From: a virus | DNA: 36,576 nt | Direction: 5' to 3' (one strand) | Virus record (IMG/VR): IMGVR_UViG_3300038415_000117 | Span: 1 to 36,576 of that record | Part shown: positions 2,235 to 26,355 of the stretch, in pieces | Position numbering within the stretch: position 1 is the first letter of the stretch | Layout: each line of letters opens with the position of its first letter | Translations under genes and position numbers: made by a program | Notes under the pieces: generated by a model | Databases searched by the model: none | What the model saw: only the letters and a program-made list of their open reading frames with translations | What the model was told of the DNA's origin: nothing

Positions 2235-2510
2235 ATGTCGGACCTCGAAGATCTCACCCTCACCTGTCGTGATTGCAACAGACCATTCATCTTGACTGCC
2301 AAGGACCAGGCCTTTTTCGCCAGTATGACTGACGATCAGGGGCGGCCCTTTAAGAACCCAGTTCGATGTAAGCCATGCAGGGACATCAAAAAAGCTCAAA
2401 GAATGGGTGAGAGTCCAGTCAATCCGGCCCCTCAATCCTTACCTGATGATGACTTTCGACCGAAGAAGAAGTCTGGCGGTCGCTACCGGGATCGTGAAGA
2501 CGAGTACTGA
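2235..2510 (+). CDS. zinc-ribbon domain protein
   Basis: This 91-residue protein starts with a compact zinc-binding domain: CRDC at residues 11-14 and CKPC near residue 45, separated by DQAFFASMTDD and followed by the basic segment CRDIKKAQR. The spacing and the DQxFF feature resemble the 'probable zinc-ribbon' family found in many bacteria and phages. The tail is charged and disordered (KKKSGGRYRDREDEY). The function is unknown; nucleic-acid or protein binding is the usual inference. Its last 28 bases overlap the convergent coaE gene. Confidence 0.75.
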   Translation: MSDLEDLTLTCRDCNRPFILTAKDQAFFASMTDDQGRPFKNPVRCKPCRDIKKAQRMGESPVNPAPQSLPDDDFRPKKKSGGRYRDREDEY

Positions 2511-3109
2511 TAGGGAAACTTGATCTTCGAGAGGACTCGTAGGGCCTCTTTGAATAGATCATCTTGAGACCCGTCGTTCCAGAGTACATAGTCAGCTAGC
2601 TTCACCTTATCTTCGATAGGGAGTTGTGAGCTGATGCGTGCTCGCGCCTCGGGCTCATTGAAACCATCCCTGTCCATCAATCGCTGGAGTTGGATCCCTG
2701 GGGATACGGCTACGACTACCAAAGGGCTGAATTCATGGTGATATCCCCGCTCGATGAGGAGTGGGGCTTCCAGTCCAACCAGGGAATAGCGCTCGCTTGC
2801 CACCCTAAGTCGAAGTCGAAGCTCGTTTTGGATGTACCGGTGAAGAGAGCTGTCCAGGACGGCTCTCTTCTTCGAGTCTGAGAACACCAGCGCCCCTAAC
2901 TTGGGTCGATCAAGAGAGCCATCTGGTAAGAGGATGTCCTGCCCAAAGTTACTCACCAAGAGGGCAAGAGCGGGAGTACCCGGAGCAACAACATCCCGGG
3001 CTACGATATCAGCATCGACCATAGGGACCCCATTATCAACGAATAGCCTCGATACCGTGCTCTTCCCACAAGCAATGCCACCAGTTAGCGCGAATATCTT
3101 GCTCTTCAT
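2483..3109 (-). CDS. coaE: dephospho-CoA kinase
   Basis: The enzyme phosphorylates the ribose 3'-OH of dephospho-CoA, the last step of coenzyme A synthesis. The 208 residues match the family in length and motifs: P-loop GGIACGKST at the N-terminus, the DAD motif (MVDADIVARDVV), LEAPLLIE for the acceptor site, and the C-terminal signature RISSQLPIEDKVKLADYV followed by NDG. These late motifs favour true CoaE over the related phage deoxynucleotide kinases. The gene stands alone, leftward, diverging from the carbonic-anhydrase-like gene. A CoA-synthesis gene on a phage is unusual. Confidence 0.9.
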   Translation of the reverse strand: MKSKIFALTGGIACGKSTVSRLFVDNGVPMVDADIVARDVVAPGTPALALLVSNFGQDILLPDGSLDRPKLGALVFSDSKKRAVLDSSLHRYIQNELRLRLRVASERYSLVGLEAPLLIERGYHHEFSPLVVVAVSPGIQLQRLMDRDGFNEPEARARISSQLPIEDKVKLADYVLWNDGSQDDLFKEALRVLSKIKFPYQYSSSRSR

Positions 3110-3160: not shown

Positions 3161-3637
3161 ATGAGTACTTTCGCTACAGCCCCAGGGTTTAAGGAAGAGC
3201 ACCCAGATACTCTAGTCATTCAATGCAGTGACGGCCGGTTCAGCAAGCCGGTGTTCGAGCTACTCCGCACCACCGGCTGCCAGAGGTACGACGTGATGGC
3301 CATGCCTGGCGGACCCGCCCTGCTGGACATGGTGGGGGCCTCAATTACAGAGTCTGAGGCTTGTAGGGCCGGTACTTCTTTTCTAGTCAAAAGCCACAAG
3401 ATTAGCACTATCCACTTGATTGCCCATGCAGGTTGTGGCTATTATGACTCTCGTTTTGGAGGTATGAACCGGAACTCTCTTCAAGAAAAGCAAGTTAGTG
3501 ACATGCAGCACGCTGCAGCTTGGCTTCGTAGGTTGGACAGCAAGATACTGGTCCTAGCCTACTTTGCCACCGTGAAGAGTGGTACCGTTCTCTTTCAAGA
3601 CATCGAAATCAATAAGAAAACTAACCCATTGTACTAA
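3161..3637 (+). CDS. beta-carbonic-anhydrase-like protein
   Basis: The protein has the zinc-site motifs of the beta-carbonic anhydrase fold. CSDGRF near residue 22 gives the Cys plus the Asp-Arg dyad, and LIAHAGCGYY near residue 90 gives the His-x-x-Cys pair. At 158 residues it is shorter than the typical enzyme of about 200 or more, and MPGGPA replaces the usual RNAGN region. It may be a divergent or non-catalytic member. Beta enzymes hydrate CO2; some relatives have other activities. It is followed after one base by the Nudix gene, so the two are probably co-transcribed. Confidence 0.7.
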   Translation: MSTFATAPGFKEEHPDTLVIQCSDGRFSKPVFELLRTTGCQRYDVMAMPGGPALLDMVGASITESEACRAGTSFLVKSHKISTIHLIAHAGCGYYDSRFGGMNRNSLQEKQVSDMQHAAAWLRRLDSKILVLAYFATVKSGTVLFQDIEINKKTNPLY

Positions 3638-4415: not shown

Positions 4416-5063
4416 ATGTCTGAACTTCTCAAGTGGTACAATCTGATCTTCTATATCCCGCTGGTAATTGGGCTCCTATCGGTTATCGGTGTTGGTTTTT
4501 CTGGGACAGGCCACGACGTTGGGGTTCACGGAGATATCCACGGGGACTTTCATGCGGACGCTGACTCCGACACTGATGGTGATAACGACGGAGACAGTCA
4601 AGGGAACTGGGTTCTTGGGCTTCTCGGGATCGGAAGGGTCCCGGTCGCCATATCCATCATGACCCTGCTCCTGATCTTCTCGGGTACTGGAATCTGCATG
4701 AACACACTACTTGGGGGACTCCTCAAAGTGTGGAGCGGGTTTGCTTTGGTTTCGCTGGTTGTAGCGACTATCGTGATGTTCTTCGGTACCGCCTTCGTGA
4801 GTCGAACCGTGGGCAAGTTCATGCCCACCACTGAAACAGATTCAGTAAAGAAGATGGATCTCATCGGCTGTACCGGAACTGTCATTCTCGATTGTGACAG
4901 TTCCAGCGGGTTAGCTCAGATTTGTAACAAGAGTGGGGACCGCTATCAAATCCGATGTCGGTCGGAAAAGCCTATCCCCAAAGGAACTCCAATCCTAACC
5001 TTCGAATATAACGAAGCTTTTGACTCGTACACAGTAGTTGTTGACCCCACGATTGGTGGGTGA
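4416..5063 (+). CDS. YqiJ-like (DUF1449/NfeD-type) OB-fold membrane protein
   Basis: Three hydrophobic segments are visible, at about residues 9-28, 77-96 and 105-128, followed by a soluble C-terminal domain (about residues 145-212) with the small beta-rich look of an NfeD/YuaF OB fold (DLIGCTGTVI). Between the first two membrane segments lies an Asp/His-rich loop, including DADSDTDGDNDGD, likely to bind metal. YqiJ and YuaF are the membrane partners of flotillins in Escherichia coli and Bacillus. The flotillin follows 42 bases downstream, which strongly supports the call. A CCCAC/GTGGG hairpin lies at the stop codon. Confidence 0.8.
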   Translation: MSELLKWYNLIFYIPLVIGLLSVIGVGFSGTGHDVGVHGDIHGDFHADADSDTDGDNDGDSQGNWVLGLLGIGRVPVAISIMTLLLIFSGTGICMNTLLGGLLKVWSGFALVSLVVATIVMFFGTAFVSRTVGKFMPTTETDSVKKMDLIGCTGTVILDCDSSSGLAQICNKSGDRYQIRCRSEKPIPKGTPILTFEYNEAFDSYTVVVDPTIGG

Positions 5064-5105
5064 GTTTGGAACACCCTGCCTAGCAGGGGGAAAGATGTAA
5101 ATCAG

Positions 5106-7043
5106 ATGGGTATTGGTCTATTTTTTCTGTTGCTCTTCGGGGTACTTCTAATCGCTAGTCCGATAGCCGTGAATACGTTCACGACTCACCAGGTCTCGGG
5201 GTTGTCCTCGATTATTATGACCCTCAGCGGGGTCCTACTCGTTCTGTTATGTGTCGTTCTCATAACAATTACGAAGCTTTATGTCAAAACGAAGGCCAGT
5301 GAAGCCTTCGTCAAGACTGGTATGGGCGGGCTAAAGGTCATTCGAGATGGTGGCGCTGTCATCCTCCCGGTCGTCCACCAGATAGTCCGAGTCTCTCTTG
5401 AGACCATCAAATTGCCGGTACAGCGTATCGGGGCTGATGCTCTCATCACCAGTGACAAATTGCGTGCTGACGTCCAAGCTGAGTTCTATGTTCGAGTACA
5501 AGCTTCAGATGAGGACATTAAAGCAGCGGCCCGTTCTCTTGGTGACAAGATGAGCGAGGTCAATGTAAATGCTCAACAGCAAAGAAGGTCTGATGGAAAG
5601 GCCTATGAGTCGAGTGTAGCGGCCCTCATTGAGGACAAGTTGGTGTCCGCCCTTCGTACTAGTGCAGCCAAGAAAACCCTCGAACAGCTCAACAGTGACC
5701 GAGATGAGTTCTTGAAGGAAGTTGTGGATGGGGTCACCGCGGACCTGAAGCACAATGGGTTCCTCCTCGAAACAGTCACCATTTCCAAGTTGGACCAGAC
5801 CGATATCACTAACCTGAAAAATGATAACATTTTCGACGCCCAAGGTCTGAGAACCATTGCTGCAATCACCCAAAAGAACCTCACCGAGAAGAACTCCATC
5901 GTACGTACCGGTGAGCAGGCTCGAAAGGATCAAGACGTTCAGACCCGTACTCAGATCCTAGAACTGGAGAGGAAGCAATCTGAGGCTGAAGCCAATCAGT
6001 CCGCCCAGGTCCTCTCGATTCAAGCTGAACAAGAACGCATTGGTAAGCAGAACCAGATCGAAGCTCAACGCAAGGTTGACGTTGCTACCACTGAGAATGC
6101 CCAGCAGACCATCCTCGCCAAGGTTGCCCAAGAGCAAGCGGTTGAGGTTGCAAAGCGTCAACAACAACAAGCCATCGTGATTGCTGACCAGAAGGTTGAA
6201 GTTGCAAAGCGGGACCAGCAGAAGGCCATTGCTGGCTCTGAAGCTGAGAAGGCAAAGGCTGAAGCCCTCCTCGCTGATGCTGAAGCTGAACGTCAGAAGG
6301 CCCGCCAGAACATCCAAACGGTAGAGGTAGTTGCTGCTGCTGACCGAGAGAAGCAGAAGGCAGTTATCGCGGCCCAAGGTGAAGCTGAGAAGAACTATGT
6401 GACCGCCCAAAGGACAGCTGACGCTGGTGCTTACAAGACAATGAAGGAAGCTGAAGCTCGTAAAGCATCGGCTGATGCAGATGCTGAGGCAGTAACCAAG
6501 CAAGCCTCAGCAGCCTCAAAGGCAGCTGAGCTTCAAGCTGCAGGTAATAAAGCTCTGCTCCTGGCCCAAGCTGATGGTGACAAGGCAAAGCTCCTTGCTA
6601 CAGCCGAAGGTCAGAAAGCTTTGGCCATGGTTCCTGTCGAGGTCAATGCCCGCCAGGTGGAAGTCGACAAGCAACGAGTCGAAGAAGTCCTCAAGCCGGA
6701 ACTCGAAGCTCGTGCGGCCAACGGTGAAGCAGCCCAAAACTTCGAACTGGCCAAGTTGTCCATCACCCAAGAAGCTCTGGTCAAGATCGAATCAGCCAAG
6801 GCTACAGCTCAGTTCTATGGCAAGATCCAAGCCAATGTGTATGGGACCCCTGAGGACGTCGCCAAGATGTCCCAGCACTTCAATGCAGGCATGGGTCTAT
6901 CCCAGGCCTTCGGCGGGTTTCTAGCCGGTGCTGATGCTTCCACAGCCGAAACAGTCCAGAAGACAGTTGGCGCAGTCAACGACCTAGTAAGCTCAGTAGG
7001 CAAGATGGTGGGTAAGAAGGCCTCGAAAGAGACTACCACCTAA
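5106..7043 (+). CDS. flotillin (SPFH/band 7 protein, YqiK-like)
   Basis: This 645-residue protein has two N-terminal membrane segments (about 3-24 and 36-58), an SPFH domain (about 60-250) and a long coiled coil rich in Ala, Glu, Gln and Lys, with repeated EAE, AEAE and QAK units. Such flotillins assemble as large membrane-bound rings that organise membrane microdomains. The C-terminus (about 575-645) is less charged, as in YqiK. It forms an operon with the YqiJ-like gene. The leader holds a hairpin (CCCTGC 5074-5079, GCAGGG 5083-5088) that covers the purine-rich AGGGGG, and a start-stop ATGTAA at 5095-5100, so translation may be regulated. Flotillins are rare on phages. Confidence 0.9.
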   Translation: MGIGLFFLLLFGVLLIASPIAVNTFTTHQVSGLSSIIMTLSGVLLVLLCVVLITITKLYVKTKASEAFVKTGMGGLKVIRDGGAVILPVVHQIVRVSLETIKLPVQRIGADALITSDKLRADVQAEFYVRVQASDEDIKAAARSLGDKMSEVNVNAQQQRRSDGKAYESSVAALIEDKLVSALRTSAAKKTLEQLNSDRDEFLKEVVDGVTADLKHNGFLLETVTISKLDQTDITNLKNDNIFDAQGLRTIAAITQKNLTEKNSIVRTGEQARKDQDVQTRTQILELERKQSEAEANQSAQVLSIQAEQERIGKQNQIEAQRKVDVATTENAQQTILAKVAQEQAVEVAKRQQQQAIVIADQKVEVAKRDQQKAIAGSEAEKAKAEALLADAEAERQKARQNIQTVEVVAAADREKQKAVIAAQGEAEKNYVTAQRTADAGAYKTMKEAEARKASADADAEAVTKQASAASKAAELQAAGNKALLLAQADGDKAKLLATAEGQKALAMVPVEVNARQVEVDKQRVEEVLKPELEARAANGEAAQNFELAKLSITQEALVKIESAKATAQFYGKIQANVYGTPEDVAKMSQHFNAGMGLSQAFGGFLAGADASTAETVQKTVGAVNDLVSSVGKMVGKKASKETTT

Positions 7044-8838: not shown

Positions 8839-11193
8839 CTAACCATTCGTTGGGGTTTGATCTAGTTGGTAGATATCCCAATTACCCAAAGAGTAAGGGA
8901 TGTATTGAGTACCGACCCCCCAACTTACTGGTACTATGGCTCCTCCGCCCCAGTTGAAGATGTTAGTACCGCCAGCTGTACTAACAGTCCAGTTAGCCCC
9001 ATCAACGCTGTACTCTGAAATGTAATTCACCCCATCAAAACGTAAGCGTACCCAGGTAATACCATTGGTAGTGTGCATGTTGTTTGCAGTTAAACCACCA
9101 TAGTAGTTACGGGTATGACCTGAGAACCCGCAGGCTGATGCTGACAATAGCAATGGACCATAGGGGCTATCCTGAGGCCCAAACATAAACCGATTACCAC
9201 TCCCATCGAGGAGAACTATATTTATACTGGAGTAAGGGTTACCGTCACCACCGCGTGCACCTGTTGGAAGGTACTTGGTGGCCATCGTAATAGTCCAGAT
9301 ACCACCTGGGCCCACGTTCAATGCTGGGGATGGGGGTAGCCAATCGACGTAGTCTGGCGCGGGGTTCGCCAGCAAGCTAACCATTCTAGTGTAGGTATTA
9401 TGTGCTTGTAGAACCGCTGCGTCAGCAATCCCACTCTCATAAGTCCAACCAGAGATATCACCAACGGATAGCGGTATTGGTACAAATCCAGGTAGTATTA
9501 TGTTCCAATGATGACTTATGTCGACTAGTTGCGTTGTATCATCCGTAGGGATATACATAGTTCCATCTGGAAGCCCAGCAGGATCCGGAGTAGCTGAAGC
9601 CAAACCAACATAAATTGTACCCCCGCCACCACCCCCGCCACCGCTAGACCCTTGGAATCCTTGAACTCCTTGAACCCCACTCCCTTGGAATCCTTGGGGC
9701 CCACTTCCTTGAACTCCTTGAACCCCCTGTGGTCCCACATTTCTCATCAACCGGATTCTGGTAATCGTAGTTTGGAATGCGGTACCACTACCGGCTCGCA
9801 TAGCTGAGAGGAATAGGTTGATATCTGCTAATACGTGGCTATGTGAGACTGGAGTACTACTAATGGTTCCTTGGTAAATCGTACTCATCTGACTACGAGC
9901 TGGCCAACCACCACTGTAGTTAGGGGCTGTGAGTGCTTGAACTGAAGATCCGCTAAAGCCACTTGGAACTCTTAGAATAAAGGTTCTCGTACTAGCCCCT
10001 AAGCTATTAGGGGGTGAGCCTATGTAATCAGTATTTCCCTCAATCCACTTTATGGTCACACCAAGCTGATTCACATACCCACGAATTATCCCGATTAGAC
10101 GATCAGTAACACTTCCGGTTCGTGCATACAACCCACCGGCGGTGTTGTCATAATTGGCAGCCTCATTAGAAGTAGCGACATAGATCCACATCTCTAATGG
10201 GGTTGTGACGTCACCCGTAGGAATCACTTGATCTAGAGATACTGCTAAGATGGGTGTGCTAAAGACGCTACCGTATAGATCACAGTATGAGTTTGGGGTG
10301 ATCTGCAAACCTGATCCATTGACAATCTGCATAGCAGTTAGGTCATTGGCGCTATTGAGCTTATTCCAGGTCAAACCCCCAATTGTGTAGGGTCCATCAG
10401 GAGAGAGTACTTGACTTGGTTGGGATGAAAAATCGATCTCCCATACCGCAGCCCATTCGTCAGGCCCCCCACCTCCCCCACTGCCCGAGCCTTGGAATCC
10501 TTGAGCCCCGATATCACCTTGCACGCCTTGAGTTCCGGACCCAACTCCCCCCTGAAAGCCTTGAGCCCCTTGGTATCCAGCTCCAATTGCTCCTTGATAC
10601 CCTTGAGCCCCGATATCACCTTGGTCACCCTGAACACCTTGGTCCCCTTGAGTTCCAGATCCTGTGGACCCTTGAGCTCCTTGAACTCCTTGAACCCCAA
10701 TATCACCTTGGTCACCTTGGTTACCCTGAGTCCCAGCTCCTGTGGACCCTTGAGCTCCTTGTCTTCCTTGAGTCCCAGCTCCTGTGGGCCCCTGAACTCC
10801 TTGTTTTCCTTGAGGCCCTTGGTATCCAGCTCCGCCCCCACCACCAGCCCCCTGCCAACCCTGATTACCTTGGGGACCAGAACCACCAGAAGATGTCGGA
10901 TCCAAACCACCCCTCTGTTGTTCAAACAGTACGCTAATTGCTGATGCAACAGTAGTGTAGTTCGAATCAGGTGATGGTATTATCGGGTTAGTTGAGAATA
11001 ACCCACCAATTATTGACTGTAGAAGCTCTGCCTCAGCATCTAGGTTGGTACTAGTCGTGTTGATAGCACTGTAGATGATTCCAGCAATATGTGCTACGTA
11101 ACTACTAGTGAGTGACCCTGTACCCCAGTGATTCTGACTACTATTGATGCCAGATACGATAGCGTCATAAAAATTAGGGTTGCTATGAGACAT
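8839..11193 (-). CDS. collagen-like tail fibre protein
   Basis: This 784-residue protein has an N-terminal helical domain (1-100), a long collagen-like block (about 103-245) of GxxG[FVYN]QG triplets, a beta-rich domain (about 248-480), a second short collagen block (about 486-523) with a poly-Gly run, and a C-terminal beta-sandwich-like region (about 525-784). Gln replaces Pro in most triplets, as in other phage collagen-like fibres, which form trimeric rods. The C-terminal domain, rich in aromatic and Asn/Gly residues, may bind a surface sugar. ATG 11193 is preceded by GGGAA. Confidence 0.85.
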   Translation of the reverse strand: MSHSNPNFYDAIVSGINSSQNHWGTGSLTSSYVAHIAGIIYSAINTTSTNLDAEAELLQSIIGGLFSTNPIIPSPDSNYTTVASAISVLFEQQRGGLDPTSSGGSGPQGNQGWQGAGGGGGAGYQGPQGKQGVQGPTGAGTQGRQGAQGSTGAGTQGNQGDQGDIGVQGVQGAQGSTGSGTQGDQGVQGDQGDIGAQGYQGAIGAGYQGAQGFQGGVGSGTQGVQGDIGAQGFQGSGSGGGGGPDEWAAVWEIDFSSQPSQVLSPDGPYTIGGLTWNKLNSANDLTAMQIVNGSGLQITPNSYCDLYGSVFSTPILAVSLDQVIPTGDVTTPLEMWIYVATSNEAANYDNTAGGLYARTGSVTDRLIGIIRGYVNQLGVTIKWIEGNTDYIGSPPNSLGASTRTFILRVPSGFSGSSVQALTAPNYSGGWPARSQMSTIYQGTISSTPVSHSHVLADINLFLSAMRAGSGTAFQTTITRIRLMRNVGPQGVQGVQGSGPQGFQGSGVQGVQGFQGSSGGGGGGGGTIYVGLASATPDPAGLPDGTMYIPTDDTTQLVDISHHWNIILPGFVPIPLSVGDISGWTYESGIADAAVLQAHNTYTRMVSLLANPAPDYVDWLPPSPALNVGPGGIWTITMATKYLPTGARGGDGNPYSSINIVLLDGSGNRFMFGPQDSPYGPLLLSASACGFSGHTRNYYGGLTANNMHTTNGITWVRLRFDGVNYISEYSVDGANWTVSTAGGTNIFNWGGGAIVPVSWGVGTQYIPYSLGNWDIYQLDQTPTNG
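10459..10884 (-). repeat. collagen-like coding repeat
   Basis: About 140 codons of tandem Gly-x-y triplets, with recurring 9- to 30-base DNA units such as CAAGGTGATATTGG and CAAGGAGTTCAAGG read leftward. A shorter block lies at about 9625-9735. Copies of this kind recombine easily, so length may vary between relatives. Confidence 0.85.
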
Positions 11194-21597: not shown

Positions 21598-22104
21598 ATG
21601 AACAAAGCAATCGCGGTAACTCAACAAGGCGACAAGACCCTATTCTTGATTGGTAATCACCAAGCGACTCTCCGATTTGACGGAAGGAGAAATGTGTGGT
21701 CTGCCGAGTATTTCAACAAGAGTCGAAAGGTCCTCGCATCCGACGCTGATAACCATCCTATAATGCCGAACGCGATCTTCGATCAACCTCGGGCGGAAGC
21801 GATTGTCCGGAAGGTGGTTGGCTGCCTTCACGCTGGTCTGGACCTGCCCAAACTAGTCCACCAACCAGCAAAGGTCACCAAGCGCCCCTCCCGGAGAAAG
21901 CCACCCAAGGTAGCGCCTATCGTTACGGTCAGGGGATTTCTCGAAGACCTCTTGGAATTGGTAGACGGGGATTGGACCATTCTTACTCCGTCAGGTAGGC
22001 CAGCGGCCTTACGTAATAGTAAGGTCGTGATCTGTGACCAGCACGGTGAAACAGTCTGCGAATTCCCCTACCTTGTATACGAACACATTCTAAAGGACCA
22101 CTAA
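21598..22104 (+). CDS. hypothetical protein
   Basis: This 168-residue protein has a basic middle (KVTKRPSRRKPPKVAP), which may bind nucleic acid. The flanks are beta-type (KTLFLIGNHQATLRFDGRRN and VRGFLEDLLELVDGDW). No family is recognised. It begins nine bases after the Cys-rich gene and ends four bases before the next one, in the rightward operon. Confidence 0.6.
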   Translation: MNKAIAVTQQGDKTLFLIGNHQATLRFDGRRNVWSAEYFNKSRKVLASDADNHPIMPNAIFDQPRAEAIVRKVVGCLHAGLDLPKLVHQPAKVTKRPSRRKPPKVAPIVTVRGFLEDLLELVDGDWTILTPSGRPAALRNSKVVICDQHGETVCEFPYLVYEHILKDH

Positions 22105-22108
22105 GGAA

Positions 22109-22480
22109 ATGGCTGTTGCGTTCACTAGCCTCAAGGTCGGGGACACCATCTACGACTGTCATCGTCACCGGGTGGGCAACACCACTGCCACTGAGCTGGG
22201 GATCTGGAAGGTGAGGATCTTAGAGATCAACCTGAAAGAACGCAAAGTCCTTGTTTCCTGGAACGATAACCCTTCCAAGTGGGAGAATGAACGCTACTTT
22301 GAGTCAACTATGATCAAGAGAAACCCACCTGAGTGGGTTCACAGAGTTGGTTCAGGTACGGTCTGTTCCATATGTTGGGCCAAAAAGTCCGACGGGCATC
22401 GCCAGGATTGTACTCACCCAAAGGCCAAGAAGTCAGTTAATAGAAAGGAACCCGATTCATGTTCAGACCGATCACCATGA
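22109..22480 (+). CDS. hypothetical protein with C-terminal CCHC-like zinc site
   Basis: This 123-residue protein has an N-terminal SH3-like strand set (LKVGDTIYDCHRHRVGNTT, then KVLVSWNDNP) and a C-terminal VCSICWAKKSDGHRQDCTH that could bind zinc. No family is recognised. ATG follows AAGGAA. Its last 22 bases overlap the TPM gene, so it is co-translated with it. Confidence 0.6.
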   Translation: MAVAFTSLKVGDTIYDCHRHRVGNTTATELGIWKVRILEINLKERKVLVSWNDNPSKWENERYFESTMIKRNPPEWVHRVGSGTVCSICWAKKSDGHRQDCTHPKAKKSVNRKEPDSCSDRSP

Positions 22481-24450
22481 TACTAGCATTCCTAGTGCTA
22501 GTACTAGCGCGTCCAGCGCTAGCCGACGAGTGCACAAGCCCAGTCTTTGATTCCACAGGGAAAGTCAATGCCGTTGAGATTGAGCCCCTTCTCAAGAAGA
22601 TCCAAAGCGACGGCGCAGACCCTGCCCTCGTTCGAGTCCTCACAACAGACGAGATGAACAATCATGGAAACCTCGACAGGTATGCCGGGGACATGTTGAA
22701 ACGATGCCCATCGTGGCAGTCAGCCGGCGGCCGCCTCAAGGCCAACATCTTCCTGCTGATCCTCGAACCCAAGGGTAAGATTGCGGTTCAATTTGCCAAG
22801 AAGGGCCCATTCCAGTCCGTGTTTCCCAACGAGAGGATTGTGGACATTGGACAAGAAATGGGTGGGCTCATTAGCAAAGGAGACTTGACCGGAGCCGCAA
22901 AAGCTGGGTTATTGAGGGCTCATGCCCTGATATCGGCTCAAAAGGCTGAATCTCGTATTGTTGCGAGTGGCCCTGTCACCATTGTCAACCACAACGAGAA
23001 GCCGGCAGACTTGAGTGGTGGGTTCTCCTTCCTGAAGTGGCTCCTTGCCATAGACGTTGCTAGTGGTTTGATCTGGCTGCTCCTCTTCCTGCGAGCCAAG
23101 AAGGAAAAGACTCAGGCAGCTCAGCAGACAGCCCAAACTAAATTGGCCAGCTGCAACAACCTGATCATTGACTTCGACTCACGCCTGACTCGGATAGCGT
23201 CCATGATCACCTCCTACAAGGCCACAATAGGGGTTGTAGACTTCAACACCTATCAGGCCACACTACAGGACTTGGATAGTAAACAAAGCTCGGCCAAGTC
23301 TCAATTTGCCAACAGTGCTACGTCCTCCAACGACCCAGCGAGCTCTGGCCTGAGTGCGGATCAGTACGATGCCATGGCGAGGATCTATGACCGCCAATTG
23401 GGAACCCTGAACGATCTTGATTCTTCAATTACCAGGTTCGAAGGGATTGTTCGTGGGATCGGTAAACTACGTGACGGGGCCCAACCCGCCATTGATGCCC
23501 TGACAGCTGAAATCGAGAGTGCGACCTCTGTAGTCAATGCCGAAAAAGTCCTGAAGACCGATGGACCCCGGGCCACCCTACAGCAGGCAATCAACCTCTT
23601 AGAGCGGGCCACCAGTGAACTCGAAGCTAAGAGCTTCCAAGCTGTTGCGAACACCTGCAAGGAGGGTATGGGTCAAGCCAAGAAGGCTACCCAACAAGTT
23701 CGAGAACTAGCATCTCGCAAGCAGAACATCGAGAACAGCATCTCACAACTCGACCGCTTGGTGATGTCTGATAGGCTCGCGAGCATCGATACCCTCATAA
23801 GTGAGATCCATACCATGTATGGAGAAGGCTCGGAGTCTCCAGCACTTGAGCAACGTGCTGTGGTCACCCAGAAGACCCAAGAGCGGCAGTCAGCTATTAC
23901 CCTAGCCAAGGGTAGTTGCCTTACCCAAAATTGGGACCTGGCTGAACAGCAGATTGCTATTGCAAAGTCCACTGAGTCGGCCATCGACAATGCAATCGGT
24001 ACAGTCCAGAATCTGAGTCGCCGCTTAGCCAACGCCCGCCGGCCCCAGCAATCCAGCTCCTACCGGCCATCTTCGGGTGGGTACTCGGGTGGAAGTCGTT
24101 CCAATCACGTGACCCATACCACCGTGGTCAATAATTATGGCCGGCCTGGCTATGATGACAATGGATTAGCCCTTGGCGTAGGTTTGGGTTTGGCCATTGA
24201 CGACATGGAAACCAATGCTGAGAATACTCGTCTCCGGCGAGAGCTTGAAGAGGAACGACGAGAACGAAGCTGGGGTGGATCAAGCCGTCGCTCTAACGAT
24301 GACGACAGTAGCTTCGGGGGCGGTTCCGTCCAGTCCAGTAGCAGCGACGATGGCGATAGCGGGTATGGTGGCGATTCCGTTGACACTAGCTCATCTAACG
24401 ATAGCAGTGACTTCGGTGGTGGCAGTAGCGGCGGCGGAAGCGACGACTGA
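22459..24450 (+). CDS. TPM-domain membrane protein with long coiled coil
   Basis: This 663-residue protein has a signal peptide (cut near ALA-DEC, residue 22), a TPM-fold domain (about 25-170), a membrane helix (about 190-211: LKWLLAIDVASGLIWLLLFL), a long coiled-coil region (215-520), and a Ser/Gly/Asp-rich tail ending in a glycine-serine run. This layout (exported TPM domain, membrane helix, coiled coil, Gly-Ser tail) is that of proteins paired with PspA in bacterial envelope-stress operons. The PspA gene follows after 27 bases, which strongly supports the link. The domain's biochemical role is uncertain (a phosphatase in plants, envelope quality control in bacteria). Confidence 0.8.
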   Translation: MFRPITMILAFLVLVLARPALADECTSPVFDSTGKVNAVEIEPLLKKIQSDGADPALVRVLTTDEMNNHGNLDRYAGDMLKRCPSWQSAGGRLKANIFLLILEPKGKIAVQFAKKGPFQSVFPNERIVDIGQEMGGLISKGDLTGAAKAGLLRAHALISAQKAESRIVASGPVTIVNHNEKPADLSGGFSFLKWLLAIDVASGLIWLLLFLRAKKEKTQAAQQTAQTKLASCNNLIIDFDSRLTRIASMITSYKATIGVVDFNTYQATLQDLDSKQSSAKSQFANSATSSNDPASSGLSADQYDAMARIYDRQLGTLNDLDSSITRFEGIVRGIGKLRDGAQPAIDALTAEIESATSVVNAEKVLKTDGPRATLQQAINLLERATSELEAKSFQAVANTCKEGMGQAKKATQQVRELASRKQNIENSISQLDRLVMSDRLASIDTLISEIHTMYGEGSESPALEQRAVVTQKTQERQSAITLAKGSCLTQNWDLAEQQIAIAKSTESAIDNAIGTVQNLSRRLANARRPQQSSSYRPSSGGYSGGSRSNHVTHTTVVNNYGRPGYDDNGLALGVGLGLAIDDMETNAENTRLRRELEEERRERSWGGSSRRSNDDDSSFGGGSVQSSSSDDGDSGYGGDSVDTSSSNDSSDFGGGSSGGGSDD

Positions 24451-24477
24451 CCTCAACAAGGAAAGAAGGAAAACACT

Positions 24478-25179
24478 ATGGCATTAGGTATTTTCGACAA
24501 GGTTACCCTACTGGTCAAGGCAAAAAGCCACGACCTACTCGACAGGCAAATCGAAGCAAACTCGGTCCCGGCTCATGAACAACTCATTCGAGAGTTAGAA
24601 GGGGCAATCCGAGCTGAGTCGACCGAAACCATTAAGGCGGATGTAGCGGCCAAGAACCTGCACACCCAGGTCGGAGTCATCCAGCAGCACATCAACGAAT
24701 ATCTCGCGGGGATACAAGCCAACATCGACGACGGGGACCCCTCCAATGATCACGAACAAGCTCCGATGATGATGCACGTCGAGGAGTTGGAAGCCGAGAT
24801 GGCCGACATTAAGGCTCAAGAAGAAACAGCGAACAAGAACCATACCCTCTTGGCCACCACCTTGGAAAAGCTACAAGAGCGCCACAAGACCATGGTTCGT
24901 GAACTTTCCCAACTTCGTCGAGCAGTGAGCCAAGCTAATACCGACGAGAACGCCCTCAAGACGGTCCAGAAAGTGAAGGACCTAACCGATGGTGTTGACT
25001 CAGCCCATCTCGGGAACGCCCTGGCCCACGCTCAGGAAAGGTCCCAAGTTGCGAGTGCTCAACTGGAGCAAGCGGTTGGTAGCATTCAGGACAGTCCAGA
25101 GGCCCTGCTGGCCAAGAACTCAGCCATGGCTCGACTGGCCGCTATGCGAAAAGCTGCTGCTGGCCAGGCCGCTCAGTAA
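24478..25179 (+). CDS. PspA/IM30-family protein
   Basis: This 233-residue protein begins LGIFDKVTLLVKAKSHDLLD, the amphipathic helix and first helix of PspA/Vipp1, and then is a long helical hairpin. Members form ESCRT-III-like coats that repair and remodel membranes. There is a strong AGGAAAGAAGG site before the ATG. With the preceding TPM gene it forms a typical membrane-stress pair. Confidence 0.85.
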   Translation: MALGIFDKVTLLVKAKSHDLLDRQIEANSVPAHEQLIRELEGAIRAESTETIKADVAAKNLHTQVGVIQQHINEYLAGIQANIDDGDPSNDHEQAPMMMHVEELEAEMADIKAQEETANKNHTLLATTLEKLQERHKTMVRELSQLRRAVSQANTDENALKTVQKVKDLTDGVDSAHLGNALAHAQERSQVASAQLEQAVGSIQDSPEALLAKNSAMARLAAMRKAAAGQAAQ

Positions 25180-25181
25180 AC

Positions 25182-25811
25182 ATGAGACTGGCTTCGACAG
25201 CTAGGTTGATGGCTTGGAGGTCCGAGCCATTGAAGACCTGGAACAAGGAAAATCCGCGTGGATTCGAACTCTTCTACAAGAAGGTTCGAGTCGCGCGGGT
25301 GTTCCCCTTCCGAGTCGGGCTCACCGAGTTCGACGACCGATGGTACTGGGTAGCTGGGTACGCCGGTGATTCAGAGGTACCAGCTATCCCTCGGAAGAAC
25401 TCTTCTAATGCCCCTCTTCATGACACTAGGAAGGCCAAGGACGAGTGCGAAGCCTACGTCCGCCAGTGTCTTGGGAAGCCCAAGCATGGATGTCGACGGA
25501 GACTCTCCTGGGTCAAAGAAGTCCCTGACCCAAACCGGTCTATAGCCATAGGTCCACCCCCAGGAGGCAAGTTCCTCCTCAATGAGAAGGTGGTGGTCGG
25601 AGAGGTGAAGCCCTTCCGGATTGGGTTCGGGGCGTACCGGGGTTGGTACTGGACCGCCGCGCTACCCCCCACTGACGAGTTCGCCCACCTAACCGTGGAG
25701 CCACGAAGCACGAAGAACTCACCTGTTAACAGTCTCAGGACGGCCAAGGACGATTGTGACGCTTACCTGCGAGAACAACTACTGATCAGTCCAATGAGGA
25801 AGAGACCCTGA
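25182..25811 (+). CDS. protein with an internal tandem duplication
   Basis: Two similar halves are visible (about 20-95 and 105-195). Each has a basic start, then V(F/K)PFR(V/I)G, a (W/Y)YW motif, Asn-Ser-Pro and a final AKD(E/D)C(E/D)AY(V/L)R. No known family was recognised. It starts two bases after the PspA stop, so it is part of the same operon and perhaps of the same complex. Confidence 0.7.
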   Translation: MRLASTARLMAWRSEPLKTWNKENPRGFELFYKKVRVARVFPFRVGLTEFDDRWYWVAGYAGDSEVPAIPRKNSSNAPLHDTRKAKDECEAYVRQCLGKPKHGCRRRLSWVKEVPDPNRSIAIGPPPGGKFLLNEKVVVGEVKPFRIGFGAYRGWYWTAALPPTDEFAHLTVEPRSTKNSPVNSLRTAKDDCDAYLREQLLISPMRKRP

Positions 25812-26041
25812 TGAAACCGATCCACTACACACTCATCATCTTAGTGACCATCTCAGGTCTGGTCTGGGTAGTCAGTAAGTACCCAAAGGTGGTCACCAAC
25901 TTTCAATGCACCGAGTGGATGATACCCAAGCATAGTGATTCAGCTACGTGTCCTCCACACTCACATCTTATGGCGGTAGGGGAGCAGTGGATCTGCTCCT
26001 GCAGATCAGAAGAACAAACCATGAAAGGGATCCAACGATGA
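25811..26041 (+). CDS. small single-pass membrane protein with Cys-rich domain
   Basis: This 76-residue protein has one N-terminal membrane helix (IHYTLIILVTISGLVWVV) and a soluble tail with four cysteines (C, CPPH, WICSC). The tail probably faces outside the cytoplasm. It shares one base with the previous stop (TGATG). A role with the PspA/TPM pair is suggested only by position. Confidence 0.65.
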   Translation: MKPIHYTLIILVTISGLVWVVSKYPKVVTNFQCTEWMIPKHSDSATCPPHSHLMAVGEQWICSCRSEEQTMKGIQR

Positions 26042-26355
26042 TTGGCGCCGGCAGAATTATCAAACTTCTTGGGGAGCATGTGACTGGAGTACGCGATACC
26101 AGCGAAGTCACAACTAGCTGGCAGGTTGAAGCTGGACCCTACAAGGCCGCCATTACGGAATGGACCTTTGAATCAAAGCAGTACTATCGGTATGAGTTGC
26201 GTGTTGGTGGAAGAGCTATCCTGTATTCAGGCAACAAGAGTGCTTCCACCATCGAGGAAGCTATCCAGATAATCGAGAACACCTTGCGAGAATACCTTCT
26301 TAGGAAGTCCATCATCGAGAAGCGCTTCGGACCCAGATCTAATCCGAGCCCCTGA
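26038..26355 (+). CDS. hypothetical protein
   Basis: From ATG 26038 (ATGA overlap with the previous stop) the product is 105 residues. It looks like a small alpha/beta protein (YYRYELRVGGRAILYSGNKS, then a helix IEEAIQIIENTLREYL). No family is recognised. It is the last gene of the rightward operon that starts at 20726. Confidence 0.6.
   Translation: MIGAGRIIKLLGEHVTGVRDTSEVTTSWQVEAGPYKAAITEWTFESKQYYRYELRVGGRAILYSGNKSASTIEEAIQIIENTLREYLLRKSIIEKRFGPRSNPSP

Follow-up and report, generated by a model that had tools for sequence, protein, structure and literature searches.

We found that a 233-aa protein, encoded in a run of seven plus-strand ORFs on IMG/VR virus record IMGVR_UViG_3300038415_000117, resembles PspA nearly end to end, and it is likely a remote PspA homologue that falls outside Pfam's cut-off. 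Our preferred account, held tentatively and at somewhat less than an even chance, is that the run is a phage operon of PspA type that serves membrane maintenance and ends in three accessory genes specific to the lineage. The analysis covered all 36,576 bases of the record (the window), which is probably a fragment of a virus genome and probably derives from a large tailed phage. Consistent with such a source are glycosyltransferases belonging to phage families (PHROG search) and Pfam matches to CoaE, N6/N4 methylase, UDG, ATP-grasp, and a P22-type antirepressor domain. The genes of the run, and a second set of membrane genes in the window, are listed in Table 1.

Table 1. Coordinates of the seven-gene run and of the YqiJ-flotillin pair in the window
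Feature	Position	Strand	Basis
168-aa protein, function unknown, gene 1 of the run	21598..22104	+	ORF; 0 Pfam, PHROG, NCBIfam matches
123-aa protein, function unknown, gene 2	22109..22480	+	ORF
663-aa protein, TPM-like by architecture only	22459..24450	+	Sequence
233-aa protein, likely diverged PspA (PspA/Vipp1/ESCRT-III superfamily)	24478..25179	+	Profile comparison, model
209-aa protein with internal duplication	25182..25811	+	ORF, repeat alignment
Repeat 1 of the 209-aa protein	25233..25496	+	34% identical to repeat 2
Repeat 2 of the 209-aa protein	25539..25793	+	34% identical to repeat 1
76-aa protein with one TM, Cys 33, 47, 62, 64	25811..26041	+	ORF
105-aa protein, alpha/beta by eye	26038..26355	+	ORF
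YqiJ-like inner membrane protein	4416..5063	+	PF21001 YqiJ_N, E 8.9e-9
Phage flotillin (SPFH/Band_7)	5106..7043	+	PF01145, E 1.5e-9

Packing of the run and its last three genes

The run spans 21598-26355 and is longer than first described. It is flanked by minus-strand ORFs, and its successive gaps are +4, -22, +27, +2, -1, and -4 bases. No terminator-like sites were found on the plus strand inside the run, and a hairpin after 26355, considered as a terminator, did not rise above shuffles. We infer that the seven genes are co-transcribed. The three tight junctions that the sequence-only reading had described after the PspA-like gene are exact: the stop codon of that gene (25177-25179) is separated by 2 bases from the ATG of the 209-aa gene at 25182; the TGA of the 209-aa gene (25809-25811) ends on the first base of the next ATG, at 25811; and the ATG of the 105-aa gene at 26038 forms a 4-base ATGA overlap with the stop codon of the 76-aa gene (26039-26041).

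That reading took the coupling as a sign of a complex-forming operon. The junctions are real, but the argument proved weak because tight junctions (same strand, within -20 to +4) are ordinary. Across 41 kb of jumbo phage Phosso, 25 of 46 junctions are of this kind, in runs of up to five, as are 7 of 28 in the window, where genes were taken as mechanical ORFs and chosen by hand. Judged by eye from the upstream sequences, an obvious Shine-Dalgarno sequence is absent upstream of the 209-aa gene only, while the other two genes of the trio have one; strict translational coupling is therefore predicted for the 209-aa gene alone.

The description of the trio as unknown was upheld, each protein having no Pfam or NCBIfam family, known PspA partner families included, at E ≤ 1. 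In PHROGs, no row for the repeat protein was better than E 0.11, and the 76-aa and 105-aa proteins returned none; the rows for the 123-aa protein, the second gene of the run, were all weak (best phrog_3032 at E 0.044). Neither tblastn against 50,697 phage records, with the repeat protein and the 105-aa protein as queries, nor IMG/VR scans with all three proteins recovered a relative. A profile of the repeats gave two rows in 282 Myxococcota genomes (E 0.004 and 0.01, the chance expectation) and one row with internal stops in 14 other virus or phage records (E 0.06). With no relatives of the trio turning up in these collections, no conserved neighborhood came to light for it either. The contig with the closest flotillin relative (L002) stops short of the region expected to carry the trio.

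Another reading, which we rate about as likely as the preferred account, is that the trio consists of ordinary small phage accessory genes, serving host takeover or counter-defence, that are chance neighbors of the PspA-like gene and make no contact with PspA, their packing reflecting genome economy. The equally tight junctions elsewhere in the window and in Phosso fit this reading, as does the lack of relatives, which is typical of fast-evolving phage accessory genes. However, the window contains no second run of three such junctions besides the PspA-trio stretch, and the missing Shine-Dalgarno sequence would tie translation of the 209-aa gene to that of the PspA-like gene. Contact or partnership of the trio with PspA is suggested by position alone.

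The PspA-like protein and its upstream neighbor

The label PspA, as given in the sequence-only reading, stood as a statement of remote homology (profiles, hhalign, and model) and not as one of Pfam or NCBIfam membership. PF04012 did not match the 233-aa protein at E ≤ 1 or E ≤ 10 and so stayed short of Pfam's curated cut-off. NCBIfam, phmmer against the PDB, and blastp against E. coli YjfJ and PspA likewise returned nothing, and sequence searches for relatives were all empty, including those in the 282 Myxococcota genomes. Since PF04012 recovers PspA in 86 of 112 genomes of this phylum and the window protein finds none in the 282, pairwise search is insensitive here. Because Pfam, NCBIfam, and the PDB and E. 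coli searches were silent, we gathered PspA proteins encoded by genomes of one phylum, that of a Polyangiaceae MAG, and built two profiles, a broader one and a divergent one that combined divergent members with the two E. coli proteins.

With hmmsearch, the divergent profile scored the 233-aa protein at 15.7 bits, aligning residues 4-231 to model positions 2-226, a score equaled by none of 400 shuffles of the protein. With hhalign, the same comparison gave a probability of 88.5 and a score of 45.1, against at most 22.7 among 300 shuffles (0/300 as high) and 28.5 for the reversed sequence. The broader profile was weaker, yet still above all shuffles (7.7 bits versus 6.0 for the best shuffle with hmmsearch; 35.6 versus 21.8 with hhalign). 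We also scored 32 decoys, which were helical, low-proline stretches from available ORFs. Two of them belong to PspA themselves, namely E. coli PspA, which is part of the profile, and ME3_238 of Acinetobacter phage ME3, and were left out of the unrelated set; the best of the other 30 scored 18.8 with hhalign, and ME3_238 scored 32.0. By these comparisons, similarity to the PspA profiles runs near end to end and lies beyond chance.

An AlphaFold2 single-sequence model of the protein (pLDDT 77) has helices at residues 5-27, 29-85, 88-171, 175-201, and 207-232. In PspA and Vipp1, helices alpha0 to alpha5 include a long alpha1-alpha2/3 hairpin, and the helices of the model appear to follow the order known for these proteins. 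When the model was compared with the PDB by Foldseek, Vipp1 (6zvr) was the top row at E 0.038 and Vipp1 filled five of the top eight rows, all of them weak, with none reaching 1e-3. VIA-align was led by unrelated long helical or coiled-coil proteins with Z up to 12.5, a value within the tool's stated chance range for helical models, and Vipp1 was not among its top rows. In the viral structure library (BFVD), rank 4 was an ME3 phage protein named PspA/IM30, which, by its length, we take to be ME3_238.

We considered whether the 233-aa protein might be some other long-helix phage protein and not PspA, in which case the membrane reading would fail. The silence of Pfam, NCBIfam, and the PDB sequence search, the unrelated coiled coils at the top of VIA-align, and Foldseek E values no better than 0.038 would agree with this. 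We nevertheless regard it as unlikely: the near end-to-end match of the protein outscores every shuffle and each of the 30 unrelated helical decoys, its helix plan includes the short N-terminal helix, and the sole near decoy from outside the profile is a phage protein, by length the one that BFVD names PspA/IM30.

Phage ME3 offers a parallel. Like the window gene, the gene for ME3_238 sits in a packed run and its product is below the PF04012 threshold; PF04012 had no match in ME3, although BFVD names a PspA/IM30 protein there. Unlike in the window, its neighbors are a small TM protein and the AAA+ ATPase ME3_236, and, by the hhalign scores (45.1 versus 32.0), the window protein resembles PspA more than ME3_238 does. 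The PspA-like, one-TM coiled-coil, and AAA+ ATPase genes are consecutive in ME3 (L108:43401-45732, ME3_236 to ME3_238), and ME3_238 and the ATPase are a possible phage ESCRT-III/Vps4-like pair.

The 663-aa protein upstream had been called TPM, and here sequence comparison gave the label no support. PF04536 (TPM_phosphatase) did not match it at E ≤ 1, local TPM profiles scored it within shuffles, its hhalign scores against TPM were equaled by 1 of 150 and 3 of 150 shuffles, and a search for its relatives was empty. By eye, it has an N-terminal signal-like stretch, a soluble domain, a TM, a long helical part, and a Ser/Gly/Asp-rich tail that ends SSDFGGGSSGGGSDD; the tail motif FGGGSSGGG recurs in several of the compared TPM proteins. 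Proteins in which TPM precedes a low-complexity stretch or a long coiled coil are described as a conserved PspA partner in the available part of one survey (PMC11237479). The window protein is TPM-like by architecture only, and by analogy it may serve as a membrane anchor.

Internal duplication and the small membrane protein

The claimed internal duplication of the 209-aa protein was borne out, its halves reaching a BLOSUM62 local score of 122 against a maximum of 50 in 2000 shuffles. Identity between the repeats at codon positions 1, 2, and 3 is 0.50, 0.57, and 0.38 (82 codons); that third positions differ most fits selection on the protein. A model of the repeat pair is beta-beta-beta-alpha (pLDDT 51), and Foldseek gave no row below E 0.5 for it and hence no fold match. 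The 76-aa protein has a single hydrophobic run and the four cysteines listed in Table 1, as first read, and the description of the 105-aa protein as small alpha/beta holds by eye alone.

The 105-aa protein and the 168-aa protein were each tried as an extra repeat copy and rejected for lack of sequence support. A reading in which the 105-aa protein, and perhaps the 168-aa protein, are nonetheless further copies, the operon then multiplying a single beta-beta-beta-alpha domain (perhaps a PspA-capping module, or a nucleic-acid-binding module unrelated to membranes), is very unlikely: the strand-like and helix-like stretches come in a similar order by eye and the repeat model has this fold, but pairwise scores of the two proteins against the repeats lie within shuffles, and the hhalign probabilities for the extra copies were 0.45 and 0.16.

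Membrane genes in the window, in other viruses, and in known PspA systems

A Band_7 flotillin gene with a YqiJ_N partner directly upstream lies at 4416-7043, ∼18 kb upstream of the PspA-like gene, and the pair possibly belongs to the same phage membrane system, although it is not adjacent. A copy of the flotillin with 91% identity occurs in another IMG/VR contig, and related flotillins were found at 11 IMG/VR loci. At 7 of these 11 (L111, L113, L114, L115, L116, L117, and L118), XpaC-like (PF10112) and TelA-like genes directly follow the flotillin, and the row YqiJ - flotillin - XpaC-like - TelA spans positions of ∼9.3-13.7 kb; the seven are not all independent because L114 and L115 look like near copies. 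The same row is present in Sinorhizobium jumbo phage Phosso (L003:19290-23470). Pfam assignments of this module cover Phosso and L111 only, plus the L113 YqiJ. No XpaC or TelA relatives were found in L002, L110, or L112. At L109 (9307-13983), whose flotillin ranks second in closeness (72%), the gene after YqiJ and flotillin has a Peptidase M41 match (E 7e-19) and a weak AAA match; L109 and L121 have only YqiJ and flotillin in common with the window. This FtsH-type match behind the L109 flotillin recalls the HflKC-FtsH pairing. PHROGs held no family for the YqiJ, flotillin, and XpaC-like proteins tested. Phosso gene 493 was considered as PspA and rejected, matching PF10112 instead.

TelA of jumbo phages has been published as part of Ter systems, according to the accessible part of the report (PMC7824862), and one phage paper names SPFH proteins in its available part (PMC13384950). 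Titles and the beginnings of abstracts yielded no literature on flotillin with TelA or XpaC in phages, a scope that does not prove absence.

Elsewhere in the window, a putative carbonic anhydrase gene (3161-3637; Pro_CA_2, E 1.7e-8) adjoins a dephospho-CoA kinase gene (2483-3109; CoaE, E 5.7e-54). A 784-aa protein with collagen-like GXQG repeats is encoded at 8839-11193; its gene is absent from the corresponding site in L002, where both flanking genes are present.

In the phage PspA-type operon that we prefer, the core would be the diverged PspA and the upstream protein with its secreted domain, TM, and long helical part, which is built like B. subtilis YdjH and would act as the membrane anchor. 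Phage PspA would polymerize on the host's inner membrane during infection and stop it from leaking, for instance maintaining the proton-motive force despite abortive-infection pores or other phages. Three accessories would be made together with PspA: a soluble protein of two repeats, a small membrane protein whose extramembrane part bears cysteines, and a small protein of alpha/beta type. Protection of the membrane by the operon is suggested by analogy. Operon-like packing on one strand, the remote PspA homology, the presence of YqiJ and flotillin in the window, and the published analogies (TPM proteins as PspA partners, YdjH, and a phage PspA) argue for this account. Against it stand the unreached PF04012, the weak Foldseek rows, the coiled coils in VIA-align, the TPM label without sequence support, the failure to find relatives of the trio and hence a conserved neighborhood, the ∼18 kb and intervening genes that separate the YqiJ-flotillin pair, and the frequency of tight junctions in such phages.

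An extension that we consider improbable would make the trio a phage invention for controlling and anchoring a viral ESCRT-III-like polymer, in which the repeat protein bridges or caps PspA protomers, the four-cysteine protein anchors the polymer or detects damage to the envelope, and the small protein acts as an assembly chaperone; together with YqiJ and flotillin, this would amount to a virus-encoded membrane-repair machine.

Membrane repair by PspA/ESCRT-III proteins protects bacteria from membrane leakage. With their own version of PspA, phages could block defences that kill the infected cell via its membrane, and the trio, if true partners of PspA, would offer handles on the control of such a polymer. 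Large phages that carry YqiJ-flotillin plus XpaC-TelA, an FtsH-like protease, or PspA may merit more attention than the trio.

Among the closest known arrangements is B. subtilis pspA-ydjGHI. As described in the available portion of one study, PspA belongs to a network with the SPFH protein YdjI and two membrane proteins, YdjG and YdjH; YdjH binds PspA and YdjI, and PspA foci are lost when ydjG, ydjH, or ydjI is deleted (PMC8581546). The window likewise combines a PspA-like protein with a membrane protein that by architecture resembles the TPM/long coiled coil type and with an SPFH protein, going by the accessible parts of two accounts (PMC11237479, PMC8581546). Unlike in B. subtilis, the TPM-like gene is upstream and its putative TPM domain lacks sequence support, the SPFH gene is ∼18 kb away, no YdjG counterpart was seen, and three unrelated small genes follow the PspA-like gene. 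That phages encode PspA is already published: PspA of Salmonella phage SeF3a (phrog_1203) was proposed, in the part of the paper available, to keep up the proton-motive force and thereby forestall abortive infection (PMC9409062). The window resembles SeF3a in bearing a PspA homologue; at E ≤ 1, however, the window protein did not match phrog_1203, and the same part of the SeF3a account mentions no comparable downstream genes (PMC9409062). Finally, the window trio has no Pfam match at E ≤ 1, but its position recalls the bacterial CesT/Tir-PspA and PspAA-PspA pairs, in which small alpha/beta proteins are encoded beside pspA, as set out in the available part of the survey (PMC11237479).
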